This document shows, piece by piece, positions 5,205-61,993 of a stretch of DNA of 64,000 bases. Source of the stretch: Cephaloticoccus primus (GTDB lineage: Bacteria; Verrucomicrobiota; Verrucomicrobiia; Opitutales; Opitutaceae); NCBI RefSeq assembly GCF_001580015.1, contig NZ_LSZQ01000009.1, positions 1 to 64,000 of the forward strand, written 5' to 3'. Position 1 is the first letter of the stretch. Each line of letters opens with the position of its first letter. A program made the translations under genes and the position numbers. Under the pieces are notes generated by a model that was not told where the DNA came from, did no database searches, and worked only from the letters and a program-made list of their open reading frames with translations.

Positions 5205-5516
5205 GACTCCCCCGCGGGGCGGTGGCGGGTCGCCACTTCCATTCAATTTGCGATTTTGCCCGTGCGCTGTGCGCCCGAACAAAATCGCAAATTTAACGGG
5301 GCCTCCCCCAGTCGCATTGCGACTGGGAAGAAACTCAAAACGCGAATGGAACAGGAAACCCACTTGGGCGCGGCTAAAAAGTTTACGAGTTAAACTCCCA
5401 CCTGCTCCAGTCAGGGAGTTCATTCTACTGTGCGGCTTGCTTGGCGGGCGGAACGCCCGACGGCAAGCCGCACAGTAAATGGGTGCAGGCGCCGCCTGCC
5501 GCCCCACGCGCAGTGG
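5205..5516. repeat. MPE-2, modular palindromic intergenic element
   Basis: This copy lies between ferredoxin and menB, both rightward. The left terminal repeat is degenerate and the right one (GCCGCCCCACGCGCAGTGG, ending at 5516) is well preserved. Inside, in order: the AATTTGCGATTTTG hairpin (arms 5245-5258 and 5280-5293), a CAGTCGC-att-GCGACTG hairpin, the GTTTACGAGTTAAACTCCCACCTG segment shared with MPE-1, then the TACTGTGCGGCTTGC hairpin (arms 5426-5440 and 5463-5477). The module order is B then A, the reverse of MPE-5 and MPE-6. The gap 5179-5628 holds nothing else recognisable, so the menB promoter must lie in or just after the element. Confidence 0.85.
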
Positions 5517-8311: not shown

Positions 8312-8603
8312 CCACTACGCGTGGGGCGGCAGGCCGGTGCCTGCACCCATTTACTGTGCGGTTTGCGTGTGCCGTGCGGAACGCACGGCACACGCAAACC
8401 GCACAGTAGAAAAAGCCCGCGACTTACCCGTAAATCATTTCGCTTCGCCTAAACGGGTTCCCTCCCTATCTGCGTTTTGGGCCCTGTTTCCTGTCGCAGA
8501 GCGACAGGATGCGAAATGTGGGAATCGTGCTTCACTGCCGACGAGCCGCCAGCGAGCGGCTCGCAAATAAAACGGGTCTATGACCCCGCCCCACGCGCAG
8601 TGG
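8312..8603. repeat. MPE-4, modular palindromic intergenic element
   Basis: Sits between two convergent genes. Left terminal repeat CCACTACGCGTGGGGCGGC (8312-8330), right CCGCCCCACGCGCAGTGG (to 8603). The main hairpin is the longest perfect one in the window: arms of 27 bp at 8352-8378 and 8382-8408 around a GAA loop. Further modules are a TTACCCGTAAA palindrome, CTGTCGC-aga-GCGACAG, GAGCCGC-cagcga-GCGGCTC, and GGGTC-TAT-GACCC (8574-8586). The AATTTGCGATTTTG hairpin is missing. The right end is only 10 nt from the stop codon of the leftward gene. Confidence 0.88.
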
Positions 8604-10574: not shown

Positions 10575-10933
10575 CCACTGCGCGTGGGGCGGTGGCGTGG
10601 CGCCACGTGCCATTTACTGTGCGGTTTGCTTGTCGGGCGTCCCGCCCGACAAGCAAACCGCACAGTAAGGGATGACCGACCTTCGGTCGGGCAGAGATTT
10701 ACCCGTAAACTTTCTTGCCGCGCTCAAATGGGGTTTTCGCTTCATTCTCGCCCCGCTCTGGGGACAGCTGACGAGCCGCCAACGAGCGGCTCGCCAAATA
10801 GAACGGGGCTGCGCTCCTAGCAACGCGACGGGGGAAGTTCCTTAAATTTGCGATTTTGCCCGGGCGCTTTGCGCCCGGGCAAAATCGCAAATTCAATGGA
10901 AGTGGTCACTGACCACCGCCCCACGCGCAGTGG
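10575..10933. repeat. MPE-5, best preserved palindromic element
   Basis: Both 19-bp terminal inverted repeats are perfect: CCACTGCGCGTGGGGCGGT at 10575-10593 and its complement at 10915-10933. Modules in order: a GGCGTGG/CCACGTGCC palindrome; hairpin A with 26-bp perfect arms (10614-10639, 10643-10668, loop TCC); CCGACC-ttc-GGTCGG; TTTACCCGTAAA; GAGCCGC-caacga-GCGGCTC; hairpin B with 23-bp perfect arms (10845-10867, 10871-10893, loop TTT); and GTGGTCA-c-TGACCAC next to the right end. It lies between fba and ppdK, both leftward. Confidence 0.93.
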
Positions 10934-10983
10934 AGCCTTAGGTTCTTCTATTGGCCGCAGCGTTGTTGCCGCGGTTCGCGCGC

Positions 10984-18856: not shown

Positions 18857-18930
18857 AAAAAACGGGAGTGTCTATGAGCGTAACTTATTTTTAATAAATT
18901 ACTTGACAAGCTGGCGCCGTATTTTACATC

Positions 18931-18994
18931 AGCTTTCGAGCTTTCGAGCTTTCGAGCTTTCGAGCTTTCGAGCTTTCGAGCTTTCGAGCTTTCG
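18931..18994. repeat. Tandem array, 8 copies of AGCTTTCG
   Basis: Eight perfect head-to-tail copies of an 8-bp unit, followed by a partial AGCT. The flanks are mirrored: ATCAGCT on the left and AGCTGAT on the right. The array lies about 160 bp upstream of the TonB receptor start and about 20 bp before the candidate -35 box. Perfect short tandem repeats of this kind change copy number by slipped-strand mispairing. Confidence 0.95.
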
Positions 18995-19640
18995 AGCTGA
19001 TAGCGACAGCAGACGCGAAGCGTCTGCTCGCTTAGTCGGCGTGGGGGTGTGGGCCCGAGTAAACATTGCCAAGAGGGGGCTACGGCCAAACGGGTGTTTC
19101 GGTGTCGCCTGAATGCAAATCCGATTTTGAGCGGACGCTTTTATCCGCCCGAGCCAACTCCACGTACTACCTGCAAGCTATGGATTTGCAGGTTTGGGAT
19201 GACGAGATGGCTTTTTACTATGCGTAGGAGCGAAAGTGACCTGCGCGCAAAAAATCAAGAGAGCATCATCGTAAGTGGAGTTCGCCGTCTCGCGCACTGA
19301 CGCGGTTACCGGAGGGGAGCGGGGTGGGGTGGGGGCGCTTTTTCGCTCACAGCGCACGGAGCCCAGCAGCATGATGGTGAGGACGAGGGCCAAAAGCTGG
19401 ACGGGCAGCGCGATGCGTTGCCAATGGGAGCGCAGCGGAGGCGGGGCGGGTGTGCTCAGTGGTGAAGGCGTGGGTTGCATGAGCTGAATTGGCCGCAGCG
19501 GTGCGTACGTAATTGAGGGAGGGCGATTGGCACGAGGGCGGGGTGATGCTTGGGGAAGCGCGTCTCGCCCTCTCGTCTTTGGCTTTCCTGGCTTTATTTC
19601 TCTATTGCGGGTAGCCCCCGCACAACAATGGGCGCGTGCC

Positions 19641-41292: not shown

Positions 41293-42252
41293 TTAATGGG
41301 AGGCCGCGAAGGCTTGGAGGCCGTGCAAGGTGAGCGCGGGTTCGCTTACCGTAAAGTCGCTTTCTGCGGCGAGCAAGGGGGCTTGGCCGCCCGTGCCGAT
41401 CACGATTGGTTGGGCGTTGGCGTCGCGCGGCCCAAAGGCGTCGCGCGAGCCGCGCTGCACGAGCGCGCGAATCGCGCCCGCATGGCCGTAGAGCAGCCCG
41501 GCGCGAATCGCGCCCGCGGTATCGGTGGCGACAGCGGGGAGCGGTTGCGGCTGCGCAGGCGCGTGCGCCCGCACCTTGGCGACTGTGCGCGCAGTTTGGG
41601 GCGAGCGTGCCGCTGAGTGTGCAGTCTTGGGCAGCGTGACTTTGGGGAGCTGCGCGGTGGCGCGTGCGAGCGCGTCGGCCCAGAGGCCGAGGCCGGGGAG
41701 AATCGCCCCGCCGAGGAGGACTCCGTCGCGGGAGATAAAGGTCAGCGTAGTCGCCGTGCCGCAATCGACGACGATGAGGTTTTGCTGCGGGTAGAGTTTG
41801 CGCGCGCCGAGCGCGGCGGCGAGCCGGTCGGCCCCTAGTTGGGCAGGGCGGCGGTAGTTGAGCTTGAGCCCGTGCCTGGCGCGCGGCGTGAGCAAGCGCG
41901 GGCGCGTGCCGAGCGCGCTTTCGAGCGCGTCGCACAGCGGCTCGGTCAACGCAGGCACCACCGAGCAAAGGGCCAAGGGCCCTTTTATCGTGCGCGGCGT
42001 CGTTGCCGCCGCGTCAGTCCAAAGCAGGCGCGAGTGGGAACTTTGATTTCTGCGCGCTTCCGTTGGAGGCGCGTCGGCTGTGCGCGGGCGGGCATTGACG
42101 AGTTTGGCGACTTTTGCGGCGAGTGCCTGCGGGCTGTGCTTGGCGACGGGCAACGTGACGTGGGTGACGAGTTGCTCGCCCGCGAAAATGCCTACGGCGA
42201 GGGTCGAGTTGCCGAGGTCGAGCGCGAGGGTAGTGGGCGTGTGGCGGCTCAT
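41293..42252 (-). CDS. coaX: Type III pantothenate kinase with in-frame repeat insertion
   Basis: ASKHA-fold kinase that phosphorylates pantothenate, the first committed step to CoA. Marks are LALDLGNSTLAVGIFAGEQL (phosphate-1), CSVVPALTEPL, YRRPAQLGADRLAAALGAR, NLIVVDCGTATTLTFI (phosphate-2), GGAILPGLGLWADALARATAQLP and VIGTGGQAPLLA. At 319 residues it is about 60 longer than usual. The excess falls in two places. The first (about residues 60-90) includes WTDAAATTPRT, encoded by 41992-42017, which matches a segment of MPE-8 perfectly over 26 nt. The second is an Ala/Pro/Thr-rich loop (about 205-240). The core motifs are intact, so it is probably functional. Its ATG overlaps the coaB stop by 4 nt. 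Confidence 0.9.
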   Translation of the reverse strand: MSRHTPTTLALDLGNSTLAVGIFAGEQLVTHVTLPVAKHSPQALAAKVAKLVNARPRTADAPPTEARRNQSSHSRLLWTDAAATTPRTIKGPLALCSVVPALTEPLCDALESALGTRPRLLTPRARHGLKLNYRRPAQLGADRLAAALGARKLYPQQNLIVVDCGTATTLTFISRDGVLLGGAILPGLGLWADALARATAQLPKVTLPKTAHSAARSPQTARTVAKVRAHAPAQPQPLPAVATDTAGAIRAGLLYGHAGAIRALVQRGSRDAFGPRDANAQPIVIGTGGQAPLLAAESDFTVSEPALTLHGLQAFAASH

Positions 42253-43013
42253 CGCTGCGGCGCGCGGGCGCGCAAAAATTGGTCGAGCCGCTGGGCGAGG
42301 GCTGCGGCGTTGGCCAGCACTGGCGGCGACTCATCGGCGCGCGTGAAAAACCGGAAGGGGTGCGGAGTGCTGCTTGTTGCCAGCTTGTTCGTAGGGCGCG
42401 CTTCGGCGCCATTCGCGCTGTGCTGCGCCTCGGCTCTGGCGGCTTCGATTTCGCTAAAATCGTTGTGGACGACGGCATCGACAGCGCTGCTGGCGAACTG
42501 TTTTTGCACGGCGGCGCGGCGCGCGGCCTCGCCCTCCCGCTCCTCCCGCCCCTCCCTTCCACCCGCGCCGACGGTGAGCTTGAAGCCGATGAGGCACAGC
42601 GGGCGCGGCGAAAACTGGCGGAGCTGCGGCAGGAGCTTGGGCACGCGGACGAGCCGCAGGGTGAGTGCGTCGCTGTCGGAGTCGATTTTACCGCCCTGCG
42701 CGGAGCTGGGCTTGGGCCGGTAGTCGGCCACGGCGGCGGCCATGATCACGGCGTCAAACGCGCCGGTGCCGAGTCGCGCCCGCAGTTGCGTTTCCAGATC
42801 GGCAGTGGTCGTGAAGCTTGGCCCGAGGGAAAGGTTGGCGTGTGGCGGCACTGCGGCGGTCGCGTACTTGCTGAGGAGGAGCTCGACCGAGTGGCCGCGT
42901 GCAGCGAGCTCGGCGGCCAGTGCGGCTCCGGTCGCGCCCGTGCTGGTGTTGGCGAGACTGCGAACGCGGTCGATTGGCTCGCGTGTGCCGCCTGCGGTGA
43001 TGAGGAGCTTCAT
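42249..43013 (-). CDS. coaB: Phosphopantothenate-cysteine ligase, stand-alone
   Basis: Joins cysteine to 4'-phosphopantothenate. From the ATG at 43013 it has 254 residues. Marks are LLITAGGTREPIDRVRSLANTSTG at the N-terminus (positions about 3-26), VIMAAAVADYRP, the SGKI-like GGKIDSDSDALTLRL, VPKLLPQLR, CLIGFKLTVGAG and VVHNDFSEI. In most bacteria this domain is fused to CoaC as one CoaBC protein; here the two domains are separate genes 34 nt apart, with the ligase second. A Glu/Arg/Gly-rich insert (GREGREEREGEAARR) and an extra loop near residues 195-220 are present. Confidence 0.9.
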   Translation of the reverse strand: MKLLITAGGTREPIDRVRSLANTSTGATGAALAAELAARGHSVELLLSKYATAAVPPHANLSLGPSFTTTADLETQLRARLGTGAFDAVIMAAAVADYRPKPSSAQGGKIDSDSDALTLRLVRVPKLLPQLRQFSPRPLCLIGFKLTVGAGGREGREEREGEAARRAAVQKQFASSAVDAVVHNDFSEIEAARAEAQHSANGAEARPTNKLATSSTPHPFRFFTRADESPPVLANAAALAQRLDQFLRARAPQR

Positions 43014-43047
43014 CGGAGGGCGGGAAAGGCGTGTGTGCGTGCGCTTG

Positions 43048-43686
43048 TCATTCGACCGGCTTTGGGGGCGTAGCGGTGTGCCCGGAGGCTGGGCTGCCAT
43101 GCGCTTGCCTGAGCGCGTTGCCGCCTGCCTGGCCCGCGCGCTGGCGCAGCGCGTGCAACACCTCGGCCGCGATTTGCTCTGGATCGGCGAGCCGGCCCAC
43201 ACCGCTGTCGCCGCAAGCGTGCGGGCCGTCGGCCGGCTCGATGATACGCAGGCCCCAGCCGCGCAGTTTTTCGAGCGCAGCGGTGGTGCTCGGGTGCTGC
43301 CACATGTGGGGATTCATCGCGGGTGCGATCCACCAGGGCTTCTCTCTTTCCCAGGCGAGGAAGAGCGTGCCGAGCGCGTCGTCGGCGAGACCCGCAGCGA
43401 GTCGGTTGATCGTGTTGGCCGTGGCGGGGCAAACGAGTGCGAGGTCGGCGGCGCGCGCGAGGGCGATGTGGTCGAGCGCGCGGCCTTCTTCCCACAGGTC
43501 GCAGAAGACAGGGCGGCCGCTCAACCCTTCGAGCGTGGCCCGGCCGATGAAGCGCAGCGCGGCAGGCGTCGCCGCGCACTGCACCTCGACACCGGCTTGT
43601 ACGAGCCGCGAGATGACGGTGCACGCCTTGTAGGCGGCGATCGAGCCGCTGAGCATGAGGAGGACTTGGGGGGCGGTAGCACTCAT
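43048..43686 (-). CDS. coaC: Phosphopantothenoylcysteine decarboxylase, stand-alone
   Basis: Flavin (FMN) protein that decarboxylates 4'-phosphopantothenoyl-cysteine to 4'-phosphopantetheine. 212 residues. Marks are VLLMLSGSIAAYKACTVISRL, the catalytic-region His in LDHIALARAADLALVCPATANTINRLAAGLADD (about residues 71-104), APAMNPHMW, and the flexible-flap GPHACGDSGVGRLADPEQI with the conserved Cys. The last 25 residues are low-complexity. It overlaps the panC stop by 4 nt and is split from the ligase domain CoaB, which follows. Confidence 0.92.
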   Translation of the reverse strand: MSATAPQVLLMLSGSIAAYKACTVISRLVQAGVEVQCAATPAALRFIGRATLEGLSGRPVFCDLWEEGRALDHIALARAADLALVCPATANTINRLAAGLADDALGTLFLAWEREKPWWIAPAMNPHMWQHPSTTAALEKLRGWGLRIIEPADGPHACGDSGVGRLADPEQIAAEVLHALRQRAGQAGGNALRQAHGSPASGHTATPPKPVE

Positions 43687-47233: not shown

Positions 47234-47538
47234 CCACTGCGCGCAAGCCGCACAGTTGGAAATGCTCCGATCTCTGGTCGGGCCTACAGGTCTGTATTTA
47301 CCCGTTAACCCAAAAACTCGCCCAAGCGGGTTTTTGTTTCATTCGCGCACGGGCTGAGGCACCTGACGAGATGCTAGGCGGGAGGGCGAGCGGCTCGCAA
47401 AATGGAGCGGTCGAAGACCGTGTCGCAACGCGACAGGGAATTGTTCAGCGTTTTGTTTTCGTTTCTGCGCCGCAGCGCAGAGCGAAAACAAAACCTTGAA
47501 TGGCCTGTGGCGCCCCGCCACCGCCCCACGCGCAGTGG
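47234..47538. repeat. MPE-7, palindromic element
   Basis: Left end CCACTGCGCGC (47234), right end a perfect ACCGCCCCACGCGCAGTGG (47520-47538), 11 nt from the fic stop. Hairpin A is reduced to one arm (AAGCCGCACAGTTGG). It keeps a CCCGTTAACCC segment with CGCCCAAGCGGG, the GAGCGGCTCGC piece, CGGTC-GAA-GACCG (47408-47420), TGTCGC-aac-GCGACA, and a variant of hairpin B with altered base (GCGTTTTGTTTTCG and CGAAAACAAAAC). Confidence 0.82.
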
Positions 47539-49060: not shown

Positions 49061-49386
49061 CCCGCTGCGCCTGGGGCAGGGGGACGGTGTTCCCTGCCAT
49101 CTAATTTGCGATTTTGCGCGTGCGCCCTCCCTCCTGGCGTCTCGTCAGGTGCATCAGCCCGTGCGCGAATGAAGCGGAAACCAACTTGGGCGGATTTTTC
49201 GGGTTAACGGGAAAATGCTGGTCTGACGCGGCGGCAACGACGCCGCGCAAAATGAGTTGCTGGAAGACCGCCCGATCAGAGATCGGATATTTCCAACTGT
49301 GCGGTTTGTTTGGCGGGCGGAACGCCCGCCAAACAAACCGCACAGTAAATGGCAGGGGACACCGTCCCCCGCCCCACGCGCAGTGG
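49061..49386. repeat. MPE-8, palindromic element
   Basis: Lies between the fic start and the gnd stop. The left end is mutated (CCCGCTGCGCCTGGGGC); the right is GCCCCACGCGCAGTGG. Hairpin B is reduced to its left arm (near 49103). Hairpin A is intact with 24-bp perfect arms (49296-49319, 49323-49346, loop GAA). Between them lie GAATGAAGCGGAAACC, GGGTTAACGGG, and a GCGGCG-gcaacga-CGCCGC hairpin within 49223-49248, the stretch also found inside coaX. GGGGACACCGTCCCC precedes the right end. Confidence 0.88.
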
Positions 49387-52277: not shown

Positions 52278-52305
52278 AGCACGTGTGCGGCGCGACGGAA
52301 GACCG

Positions 52306-54441
52306 ATGAGTGTGGAGGGCGGAGCAAACATCGCGCGGCACCTCACCGCGATGGTGGCGCGCGAAGCCGAAGCCATCCGCGAGAACGAGCCGAGCAGGGA
52401 AGTGGGCAGCGCCCCCTCGACGGCGGGGCAAGGGCCCACCGCAAAAACAAGCGCGTCTGCGGTTCCGTGCCAAAACGAAGGGCCTGCGACTTCGCTCTCG
52501 GCCTCGCTCTGCGCGCTCAAAGTGCCGCGCGGTCGCCGCGGTGATGGGCGGGAGGGGCGGATCGACTACCTGACACTTTCCTTTGCGCAACTGGAAGCCG
52601 AGGTCGATGCGTGGTGCGCGCGGCTGTGCGGCGGCACCCGCGCGGCGAGCCAGTGGCGCGGTGTGCGCACGCTGGTGATGCTGCGGCAGGGGCTGCCGCT
52701 TATCGCGGTCGTGTTTGCACTCTTCAAACTCGGGGCGGTACCGATCGTGATCGACCCGGGCATGGGTTTGAAAAACTTCCTGCGCTGCGTGGCGCGCTCG
52801 CGCCCAAAAGCGCTCGTGGGGATCCCGCTCGCGCAGTGGCTTGGCCGCCTTTTCTTTCGCAAGTTTCGCAGCGTCGAGTGGCGTGTCTGGGCGAGCGGCT
52901 CGCTCACGCATCAACTCAGCCGCAGCGCGAACAAGGCGGCTTCCCGCGCGGGCGATTTTTCCGGTGCAACGGGTAACCCCGCTGCGCCGACGGCCTTTCC
53001 GGCAGTGACCGTTTCCGCAGATGAACTCGCGGCGATTTTATTCACGAGCGGCTCCACCGGCTCGCCGAAGGGTGTGTGCTACACGCACGGGATTTTTGAG
53101 GCGCAGCTCCGCCTGATTCGCGAGCACTACGGGATCGCGGCGGGCGAGGTGGACCTGCCGATGCTGCCGATCTTTGCGCTCTTTAATCCGGCGCTGGGGA
53201 TGACGACGGTCGTGCCCGAGATCGACCCGCGGCGCCCCGCCCAGGTCGACCCTGCAAAAATCGTGCAGGCGATTTTACAGGAGCGCGTGAGCAACTCCTT
53301 CGGCTCGCCGACACTGTGGTTGAAGATCAAGCGGCACTGCCTCGCGCGCGGCATCCAGCTTCCCTCGCTGCGGCGGATCCTCTGCGCGGGCGCGCCCGTG
53401 CCTGCCGAGCTCTGGGAGGATAACGCGCGCTGGCTGCCCAACGGCCAAATCCACAGCCCTTACGGGGCGACGGAGGCGCTGCCAGTTTGTTCGATCTCGG
53501 CAGGCGAGCTGGCGGAGCAGTTTTGCCCGCTTCGGCCCGCTGACGCACCCACCGATGCGCGACCATCGGGAGTGCGCCGAACGGGCCGGTCGGAGACCGC
53601 GCCAGGTAAAACGGCCTGCGCCCGTTGGGGCGCGTGTGTGGGGCGGCCGCTGCCCGGGATCGGCGTCAAGATTATCGAGATCGTTGATGGCCCGATTGCG
53701 ACGCTGGCAGAGGTGCGCGAGCTACCGCGCGGCGAAGTGGGTGAGATCGTCGTTTCCGGCCCCGTCGTCACCGAGTGCTACGACGGTCTGCCCGAAGCGA
53801 CCGCCCGCGCCAAGGTCTTCGACCTTCCCAATGAGACGGGCCGCTCGCTGACGCCTTCGCCCGATTTACTTAGCGGTGACTTGGCAGAACAGTCGCCCCC
53901 GCCTGGCACCGACGGGCGTCTAGCGGACGTGCGACCATCGGAAGCACGCCCAGTAAATCGGTCTGCGACCGCGCAAGATAACCGATGCTGCGTAGCCCAC
54001 CGGATGGGCGATGCGGGATATTTGGACGAGGCGGGTTTTCTTTGGTTTTGCGGGCGAGTGGTCGAGCGCGTGCAGACGCCGGGCGGCACGCTCTACACCG
54101 AGCCCTGCGAGCAAGTTTTTCGCAGTCATCCGCAGGTCGAGCGCTGCGCCTTGATCGGGCTGGGTGAGCCCGGCGCGCAAGTGCCCGCACTCGTTGTACA
54201 GCCCCGTGAGGCGGGCGCGACCGCGGAGGCGGGAGCTAGCGAATACAGCCGCGCCGACCTCGCACGCGAGCTTCGCGAGCTCGCCCTCGCGCACGAACAC
54301 ACCCGTGGAATCGAGCGCTTTTATTTTCATCCGAGCTTCCCCGTGGACGTGCGCCACAACGCAAAAATCCATCGCCACACGCTCGCTCGCTGGGCTTCGC
54401 AGAGTCGGGTCGCGCGGGTCTACATCCCTCAGGAAACATGA
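52306..54441 (+). CDS. oleC: OleC-like AMP-dependent synthetase (beta-lactone synthetase) with in-frame insertions
   Basis: ANL-superfamily enzyme; OleC converts a long-chain beta-hydroxy acid to a beta-lactone in head-to-head olefin synthesis. The ATG at 52306 has GGAAG 4 nt upstream and gives 711 residues, against roughly 550 in the family. Motifs: NIARHLTAMV start, LFTSGSTGSPKGVCYTHGIF (A3), YGATEALPV (A5), MGDAGYLDEAGFLWFCGR (A7), HNAKIHRHTLARWA (A10). The excess lies in three low-complexity blocks: about residues 28-70, 410-440 and 510-565. The last two contain palindromes and a GGTC-nnn-GACC hairpin shared with the intergenic elements. Overlap of 4 nt with oleD supports the assignment. 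An alternative is another long-chain acyl-CoA ligase. Confidence 0.82.
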   Translation: MSVEGGANIARHLTAMVAREAEAIRENEPSREVGSAPSTAGQGPTAKTSASAVPCQNEGPATSLSASLCALKVPRGRRGDGREGRIDYLTLSFAQLEAEVDAWCARLCGGTRAASQWRGVRTLVMLRQGLPLIAVVFALFKLGAVPIVIDPGMGLKNFLRCVARSRPKALVGIPLAQWLGRLFFRKFRSVEWRVWASGSLTHQLSRSANKAASRAGDFSGATGNPAAPTAFPAVTVSADELAAILFTSGSTGSPKGVCYTHGIFEAQLRLIREHYGIAAGEVDLPMLPIFALFNPALGMTTVVPEIDPRRPAQVDPAKIVQAILQERVSNSFGSPTLWLKIKRHCLARGIQLPSLRRILCAGAPVPAELWEDNARWLPNGQIHSPYGATEALPVCSISAGELAEQFCPLRPADAPTDARPSGVRRTGRSETAPGKTACARWGACVGRPLPGIGVKIIEIVDGPIATLAEVRELPRGEVGEIVVSGPVVTECYDGLPEATARAKVFDLPNETGRSLTPSPDLLSGDLAEQSPPPGTDGRLADVRPSEARPVNRSATAQDNRCCVAHRMGDAGYLDEAGFLWFCGRVVERVQTPGGTLYTEPCEQVFRSHPQVERCALIGLGEPGAQVPALVVQPREAGATAEAGASEYSRADLARELRELALAHEHTRGIERFYFHPSFPVDVRHNAKIHRHTLARWASQSRVARVYIPQET

Positions 54442-57919: not shown

Positions 57920-58110
57920 GTCCAACACCGTGTTTACTCGTTAACCCAAAAAATCGCGCAAGCGGGTTAATTCTTGGCCTGATCAGAGGTCGGGCACTTT
58001 CAACTGTGTGGTTCGCTTATCGCGCGAAACGCGTGATAAGCGAACCACACAGTGAATGGGAGCAGGCACTGCCATAAGACCGGTCTGCGACCGCCCCCCA
58101 CGCGCAGTGG
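57920..58110. repeat. MPE-9, left-truncated palindromic element
   Basis: The right terminal repeat CCCCCCACGCGCAGTGG ends at 58110, 5 nt from the stop of the leftward oxidoreductase gene; the left one is missing. Modules: GTTAACCC with CGCGCAAGCGGG, hairpin A on the variant base ACTGTGTGGTTCGC (58003-58024 with 58030-58053, nearly perfect), and CGGTC-TGC-GACCG (58081-58093), a 13-mer also found inside oleC. The variant TGTGTGG is matched by CCACACA in the other arm. Confidence 0.85.
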
Positions 58111-61579: not shown

Positions 61580-61993
61580 CCACTGCGCGTGGGGCGCGGT
61601 CGCAGCCCCACTTATTTAGCGAGCCGCTCGTTGGCGGCTCGTCAGTGTCGCCACTTCCATTGAGTTTGCGATTTTGCCCGTGCGCTTTGCTCCCGCCCTC
61701 CCGTCCAAAATCGCAAATTTCGCTCCCCCTGTCGCGCTGCGCTGGACAGGAGATGGAGCTCAAAACGCGAATGGAGCGGAAACCCCTTTGGGCGGATTTT
61801 TGGGTTAATGGTTCAAACGGCTGTTCTGACGCGATGGCCCCCAGCGATATGCAAAATAAGGCGGTGAACGCCTCGACTGACACCCGTTGGTTGGTCCTTT
61901 TCAGCCATGCGGTTTGCTGCCGTGCGGAACGCACGGCAGCAAACCGCATGGTAAATGGCCCGTGGCGCCCCGCCACCGCCCCACGCGTAGTGG
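61580..61993. repeat. MPE-10, palindromic element
   Basis: Fills most of the 582-bp gap between two leftward genes. Terminal repeats CCACTGCGCGTGGGGCG (61580) and ACCGCCCCACGCGTAGTGG (61975-61993), 28 nt from the SIS gene stop. Order: GAGCCGC-tcgttg-GCGGCTC, hairpin B (arms 61663-61676, 61706-61719), CCTGTCGC/GGACAGG, AAAACGCGAATGGAGCGG with CCCCTTTGGGCGGATT, then hairpin A with 22-bp perfect arms (61905-61926, 61930-61951, loop GAA) whose base reads CCATGCGG instead of TACTGTGCGG, again changed on both arms. Confidence 0.88.

Follow-up and report, generated by a model that had tools for sequence, protein, structure and literature searches.

Evidence for in-frame insertion of a small dispersed palindromic element in coaX of Cephaloticoccus primus

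Introduction

The window analysed here is a 64,000-nucleotide stretch of the Cephaloticoccus primus genome (contig NZ_LSZQ01000009.1, positions 1 to 64,000). It contains coaX (41293-42252, minus strand), which encodes a type III pantothenate kinase of 319 amino acids. An earlier note on this DNA reported that 26 nucleotides within coaX are repeated in reverse complement in MPE-8, an intergenic repeat. This raises the question of whether a repeat has entered a conserved gene and is carried there as a new peptide segment, or whether the match is ancestral coding sequence. The answer reached is that the coaX segment is a lineage-specific, in-frame insertion of a small dispersed palindromic element, with a probability of about 93%. 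Whether such inserts are junk that is tolerated or a means by which proteins gain new segments is an old question, and here it can be tested in one small gene of known activity.

The window's own genome (G000) comprises 2.36 Mb in 72 contigs and is 98.8% complete. It was compared with the closest genome of the genus, that of a sister species (G001), and with further relatives. Two covariance models of the element were used. R1 was built from 18 copies. R2 was built from 148 copies, with coaX left out and at least one other in-gene copy (GH2) included.

The match between coaX and MPE-8

The 26 nucleotides at 41992-42017 were confirmed to be the exact reverse complement of 49223-49248. The exact match extends to 27 nt (41991-42017 and 49223-49249) and 30 of 31 nt are identical. 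The match had been judged to be beyond chance, and this held: no match arose in 100 dinucleotide shuffles and no other site in the window lay within 3 mismatches. In the coaX frame the 26 nt encode TDAAATTPR, as reported, which corresponds to CoaX residues 79-87.

The pairing of coaX with MPE-8 was borne out in part. The MPE-8 copy (49221-49273, plus strand; R1 and R2) has a hairpin 1 identical to that of coaX. The pairing is not exclusive, as six sites in the genome have the 20-nt core without a mismatch. When 56 nt are compared, the coaX copy agrees with the C61 copy at 43 positions and with MPE-8 at 38. Direct transfer from MPE-8 to coaX is not supported, given the six sites with the exact core and the closer C61 copy.

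Structure of the coaX insert

The earlier note described a piece of the element in coaX. Element sequence is indeed present, as a full-length copy with a weaker second module and not as a mere piece. The complete two-hairpin element lies at 41967-42019 (minus strand) and consists of hairpin 1, an A-rich spacer and hairpin 2 (R1 66.4 bits, R2 56.8 bits). It is covered by positions 1-53 of the 53 positions of R2, the model built without coaX, with an E value of 1.4e-11 over the window. On the coding strand the unit reads GACTGACGCGGCGGCAACGACGCCGCGCACGATAAAAGGGCCCTTGGCCCTTT. Hairpin 1 (41992-42017, minus strand) is the reported 26 nt, comprising the stem-loop CGCGGCG-GCAACGA-CGCCGCG with short flanks. 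Hairpin 2 (41967-41985, minus strand) is AAAGGGCC-CTT-GGCCCTTT. The second module (42030-42079, minus strand) is diverged, reads GACGCGCCTCCAACGGAAGCGCGC and encodes ADAPPTEARR. R2 scored it at 19.3 bits (E 1e-4) over 981 nt and at 18.9 bits (E 0.008) over the window.

DNA alignment with the sister species and protein alignment of orthologues placed an insert of 102 nt (34 codons) at 41976-42077 (minus strand), with alignment-derived edges that are uncertain by several bases. This imprecision reflects the variability of the region and an identity of only about 63% between the CoaX proteins of the two species. The 5' arm of hairpin 2 lies inside the insert. Its 3' arm (41967-41974) aligned to native coaX, with GGCCCT identical in the sister species (TGGCCCT). 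The right boundary of the insert does not fall cleanly at the element end because this 3' arm overlaps the native codons for LAL.

The two modules, one diverged and one well preserved, would jointly give about 34 extra residues between the helix at residues 41-53 and the strand at 93-97. The earlier note proposed modelling the structure to see whether the segment is a surface loop. In an AlphaFold model based on a 16-sequence alignment (mean pLDDT 81.6, pTM 0.80) the kinase core was predicted with confidence and the segment fell in a stretch left unstructured. Residues 60-82, in the loop between the helix and the strand, had pLDDT values below 50, which are expected for an insert lacking aligned relatives and so are weak evidence for disorder. 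The roughly 34 added residues probably form a flexible loop. A second expansion of CoaX at residues 211-233 or thereabouts (window approximately 41553-41622) is also predicted to be disordered and is absent from orthologues. It was rejected as another element as the covariance model gave no match. The adjacent coaB (window 42249-43202) carries an extra stretch compared to the sister species, AEAQHSANGAEARPTNKLATS, possibly another degraded repeat.

Comparison of coaX with its orthologues

The earlier note stated that CoaX is longer than its family at this position, between intact motifs, and the orthologues agree. The DLGN-to-SVVP spacing is 84 residues in this CoaX, compared to 45 in that of the sister species and 40-66 among the remaining orthologues that were measured. 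The GN of DLGN, SVVP, G.DR and DCG.ATT are preserved and occupy columns that are invariant in the orthologue alignment. Searches of the genome gave a single coaX and no gene for a type I pantothenate kinase. CoaX is probably the cell's sole pantothenate kinase of types I and III, and for the same two reasons it is probably in use. That coaX is essential, as the earlier note took it to be, is supported only indirectly.

Gene order around coaX is the same in the sister species, and its coaX has a clean 102-nt (34-codon) gap at the insert. A further insertion was found in the same operon. The coaC gene of the sister species (L279:5923-6573, minus strand) has an element-coded N-terminus, NDVPPASGAPNKTASG, and its coaX is free of the element. 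In C. primus the element is in coaX and none is in coaC. The simplest reading of these sequences is that independent insertions occurred in coaX and coaC after the species split. The sister species therefore supplies both empty and filled sites in one operon.

The note had named as its refutation the finding of the same residues in CoaX proteins of distant relatives. Were the 26 nt ancestral coaX coding sequence, the intergenic copies would derive from coaX or would have converged in GC-rich DNA. Short GC-rich palindromes can recur, and CoaX varies in the loop that precedes the SVVP strand. Against this, the residues of the TDAAATTPR segment occurred in no orthologue examined, no chance matches are expected, and the family numbers at least 150 copies including that in coaX, its commonest hairpin-1 variant being different from the coaX one. 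Ancestral origin is extremely improbable and is refuted by the orthologue comparison.

The element family

The element is approximately 53 nt long. It has a 5' CTGA, a hairpin 1 of 7-8 bp, a spacer like CAAATAAAA and a hairpin 2 of 5-8 bp, usually with a 3-nt loop. The 20-nt core was found within 3 mismatches at 28 places in the C. primus genome, compared to 3 for a reversed control. The major hairpin variant, GACGAGCCGCCAACGAGCGGCTCG, was found within 3 mismatches at 92 places and its control at 0. Several of these had compensating changes in the stem.

R1 identified at least 150 copies in C. primus and at least 110 in the sister species. A search of seven other genomes of the genus with R1 gave no copies. 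The family was absent from 59 sampled relatives in other Opitutaceae genera, save for one isolated match in one genome (G043). Apart from that match, the only carriers among 61 Opitutaceae genomes are C. primus and its sister species.

Stem covariation was high in the R2 alignment, with 316 double-change cells compared to 91 after shuffling and 91% of cells paired compared to 29-43% in slid controls, figures that are flattered by the fitting of this alignment to the structure. An unfitted alignment (A1) gave the same trend (35 compared to 12.9). The dispersed copies are one structurally conserved family. Among the 150 copies listed the hairpin-2 loop was GAA in 49, TGC in 27 and AAC in 11. Hairpin-2 stems vary widely in sequence and pair perfectly. 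Nineteen pairs of neighbouring copies within 400 bp were present among the 150, seven tail to tail, seven in the same direction and five head to head. A search of the window against Rfam gave no family above the gathering score, and identity with an RNA family known there was rejected.

Further copies in the window lie at 8536-8589 (plus strand; R2 65.7 bits), 10766-10819 (plus strand; R2 56.8 bits) and 61594-61647 (minus strand; R2 58.2 bits). A copy at 10930-10982 (minus strand; R1 and R2) is tail to tail with that at 10766. The copy at 47361-47423 (plus strand; R2 39.8 bits) has an enlarged hairpin-1 loop.

Copies in other genes

A gene for an AMP-binding protein (52285-54441, plus strand) carries at least two copies in frame. 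The first (53538-53602, plus strand; R2) encodes PADAPTDARPSGVRRTGRSETAP and the insert is absent in the sister species and in G003. The second (53922-53974, plus strand), identified with R2 and by orthologue comparison, encodes LADVRPSEARPVNRSATAQ. A weak third match lies on the opposite strand at 53811-53865. The AMP-binding gene of the sister species has what appears to be an element peptide of its own near the last site, VDTPPTSGGQNRASPG. PurL (L252:1745-4051, plus strand) carries several copies and has several extra segments compared to solved PurL and to orthologues in the genus, which lack these segments or differ in them. At least three of the segments resemble element-coded peptides. 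Three GH2 paralogues (L022, L023 and L024) have one in-frame copy in common, SGRGGNDTAPNEQ, at a position where solved relatives or orthologues have a gap. This copy was either inserted before the duplication or spread by gene conversion. The proposal in the earlier note that module sequences can enter genes and be tolerated as peptide segments is supported, at the level of sequence, by the copies in coaX, PurL, GH2 and the AMP-binding gene.

Approximately seven of the 150 R1 copies listed lie deep within convincing coding frames (coaX, PurL, the three GH2 genes, L021 and L268). Roughly eight more R1 copies are close to a predicted N-terminus, and in these cases the real start codon may lie further downstream. 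Bacterial DNA is mostly coding, and in-gene copies are therefore strongly under-represented. Such scarcity is as expected if most in-gene insertions are removed.

In each of the two consensus variants five of the six frames are open, and a TAA in the spacer closes one sense frame. Sense frame 1, which gives DEPPTSGS.NK or DAAATTPR, is free of stops in 137 of the 150 copies listed. The coaX copy and most of the in-gene copies seen are read in this frame. The GH2 copy is read in frame 3 and the first copy in PurL in frame 2.

These observations suggest how a copy might come to persist within a gene. Selection would presumably remove most in-gene insertions. The survivors would be copies whose length preserves the host frame, that are read in a stop-free frame and that fall within a surface loop. 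The peptide added would be hydrophilic, probably disordered and of little effect.

Instead of having little effect, the insert could have been co-opted, with the hairpin or the peptide regulating CoaX synthesis or activity, for example through an mRNA hairpin that slows translation or decay, or through a new interaction surface. The predicted folding energy of the 53-nt coaX element is strong (-27.3 kcal/mol), the stems are kept throughout the family by compensatory change, and for REP hairpins a possible role in mRNA is known (PMC3733652). The hairpin is, however, conserved in dispersed copies whatever the host gene, and its conservation is thus not specific to coaX. The host genes are functionally unrelated and the coaX of the sister species has no insert. 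Co-option is considered quite unlikely.

Spread of the element

Under the preferred reading, that of an inserted and tolerated element, the copies would have been spread by an activity that recognises the DNA hairpin. We infer from the compensating changes across dispersed copies that a hairpin-recognising enzyme, or template-switch repair keeping the arms perfect, would fit the family. Neither a mobilising enzyme nor a target-site duplication was identified. No PF01797 match, as would mark a Y1 or RAYT transposase, was found in C. primus; the sister species and most members of the genus have matches. The candidate of a RAYT-driven REP was rejected on the lack of a Y1 transposase in C. primus. 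One strong Y1 transposase is encoded in the sister species (L280, G001:C59:25108-25434; E 1.2e-38) and may be a past mobiliser. Spread by phage was also rejected, as the main hairpin had no exact match in viral contigs.

The mobile unit may differ from the 53 nt described above. Hairpin 2 could lie outside it, being formed during insertion through inverted copying of the target or reflecting a preference for landing beside small target hairpins. GGCCCT in the coaX 3' arm is native, hairpin 2 of PurL runs into the native-aligned LAV, and the stems pair perfectly despite their wide variation. In the AMP-binding gene, however, both arms are inside the insert, which contradicts a hairpin 2 that is always derived from the target. 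Most intergenic copies have a few hairpin-2 types and loops in common, and the PurL 3' arm is unmatched by the sister DNA at the native position (TTAGTGGTA). A hairpin 2 external to the mobile unit is unlikely. A broader version, that spread in the two sister species is transposase-free and templated by the hairpin, with arms kept complementary by template switching at the replication fork and hairpin 2 regenerated from the target at some insertion sites, is very unlikely.

Comparison with known palindromic repeats

The earlier note likened the coaX insert to rickettsial palindromic elements (RPEs). RPEs are dispersed palindromic repeats between and inside Rickettsia genes, where they lie in frame in conserved proteins (PMC2229807, Delihas review). 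They are 105-146 bp long, with long stem-loops and terminal inverted repeats, and a guanylate kinase containing an RPE is both translated and enzymatically active (PMC2229807). The Cephaloticoccus element is similarly repeated and palindromic, its stems are supported by the copies, and it lies in frame in genes that are conserved without the insert in relatives. It differs in its length of about 53 nt, its two small separate hairpins, its sequence and its occurrence in another phylum, in Opitutaceae.

GTAG REPs are found inside many Opitutus terrae genes, sometimes twice per gene (PMC3733652). These are also short in-gene palindromes and occur in the same family, Opitutaceae. They have an unpaired GTAG tag and a possible RAYT association, whereas the Cephaloticoccus element has no GTAG, a conserved 5' end of CTGACG and no Y1 transposase found in its genome. 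CGTC REPs, which include RPE-4 and RPE-6, are likewise small palindromes with in-gene units and no dedicated transposase known, and the end GACG of the Cephaloticoccus element is CGTC on the other strand. In CGTC REPs the tag is unpaired, the stem is 8-9 bp, the loop is 4-5 nt and head-to-head dimers predominate. In the Cephaloticoccus element the CG of the tag is paired, the stem is 7-8 bp, the loop is 6-7 nt, a second hairpin is present and orientations are mixed, with dimers not predominant. The element is outside the strict definitions of GTAG REPs, CGTC REPs and rickettsial RPEs. It belongs to the protein-coding palindromic elements as a kind.

A literature search for such repeats in Verrucomicrobiota returned the Opitutus terrae report only. 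In-gene palindromic repeats as such are already known, and the present family adds a well-supported case of protein-coding palindromic elements in this phylum. Protein length outliers in the lineage may be element insertions.

Other repeats in the window

Two further palindrome families, beginning AAATTTGCGATTTTG and ACTGTGCGGTTTGC, lie near element copies in mosaic arrays (483-540, 5242-5299 and 10842-10899; 10616-10668, 49296-49348 and 58003-58055). A tandem array with an 8-bp unit, AGCTTTCG, is present at 18923-19002.
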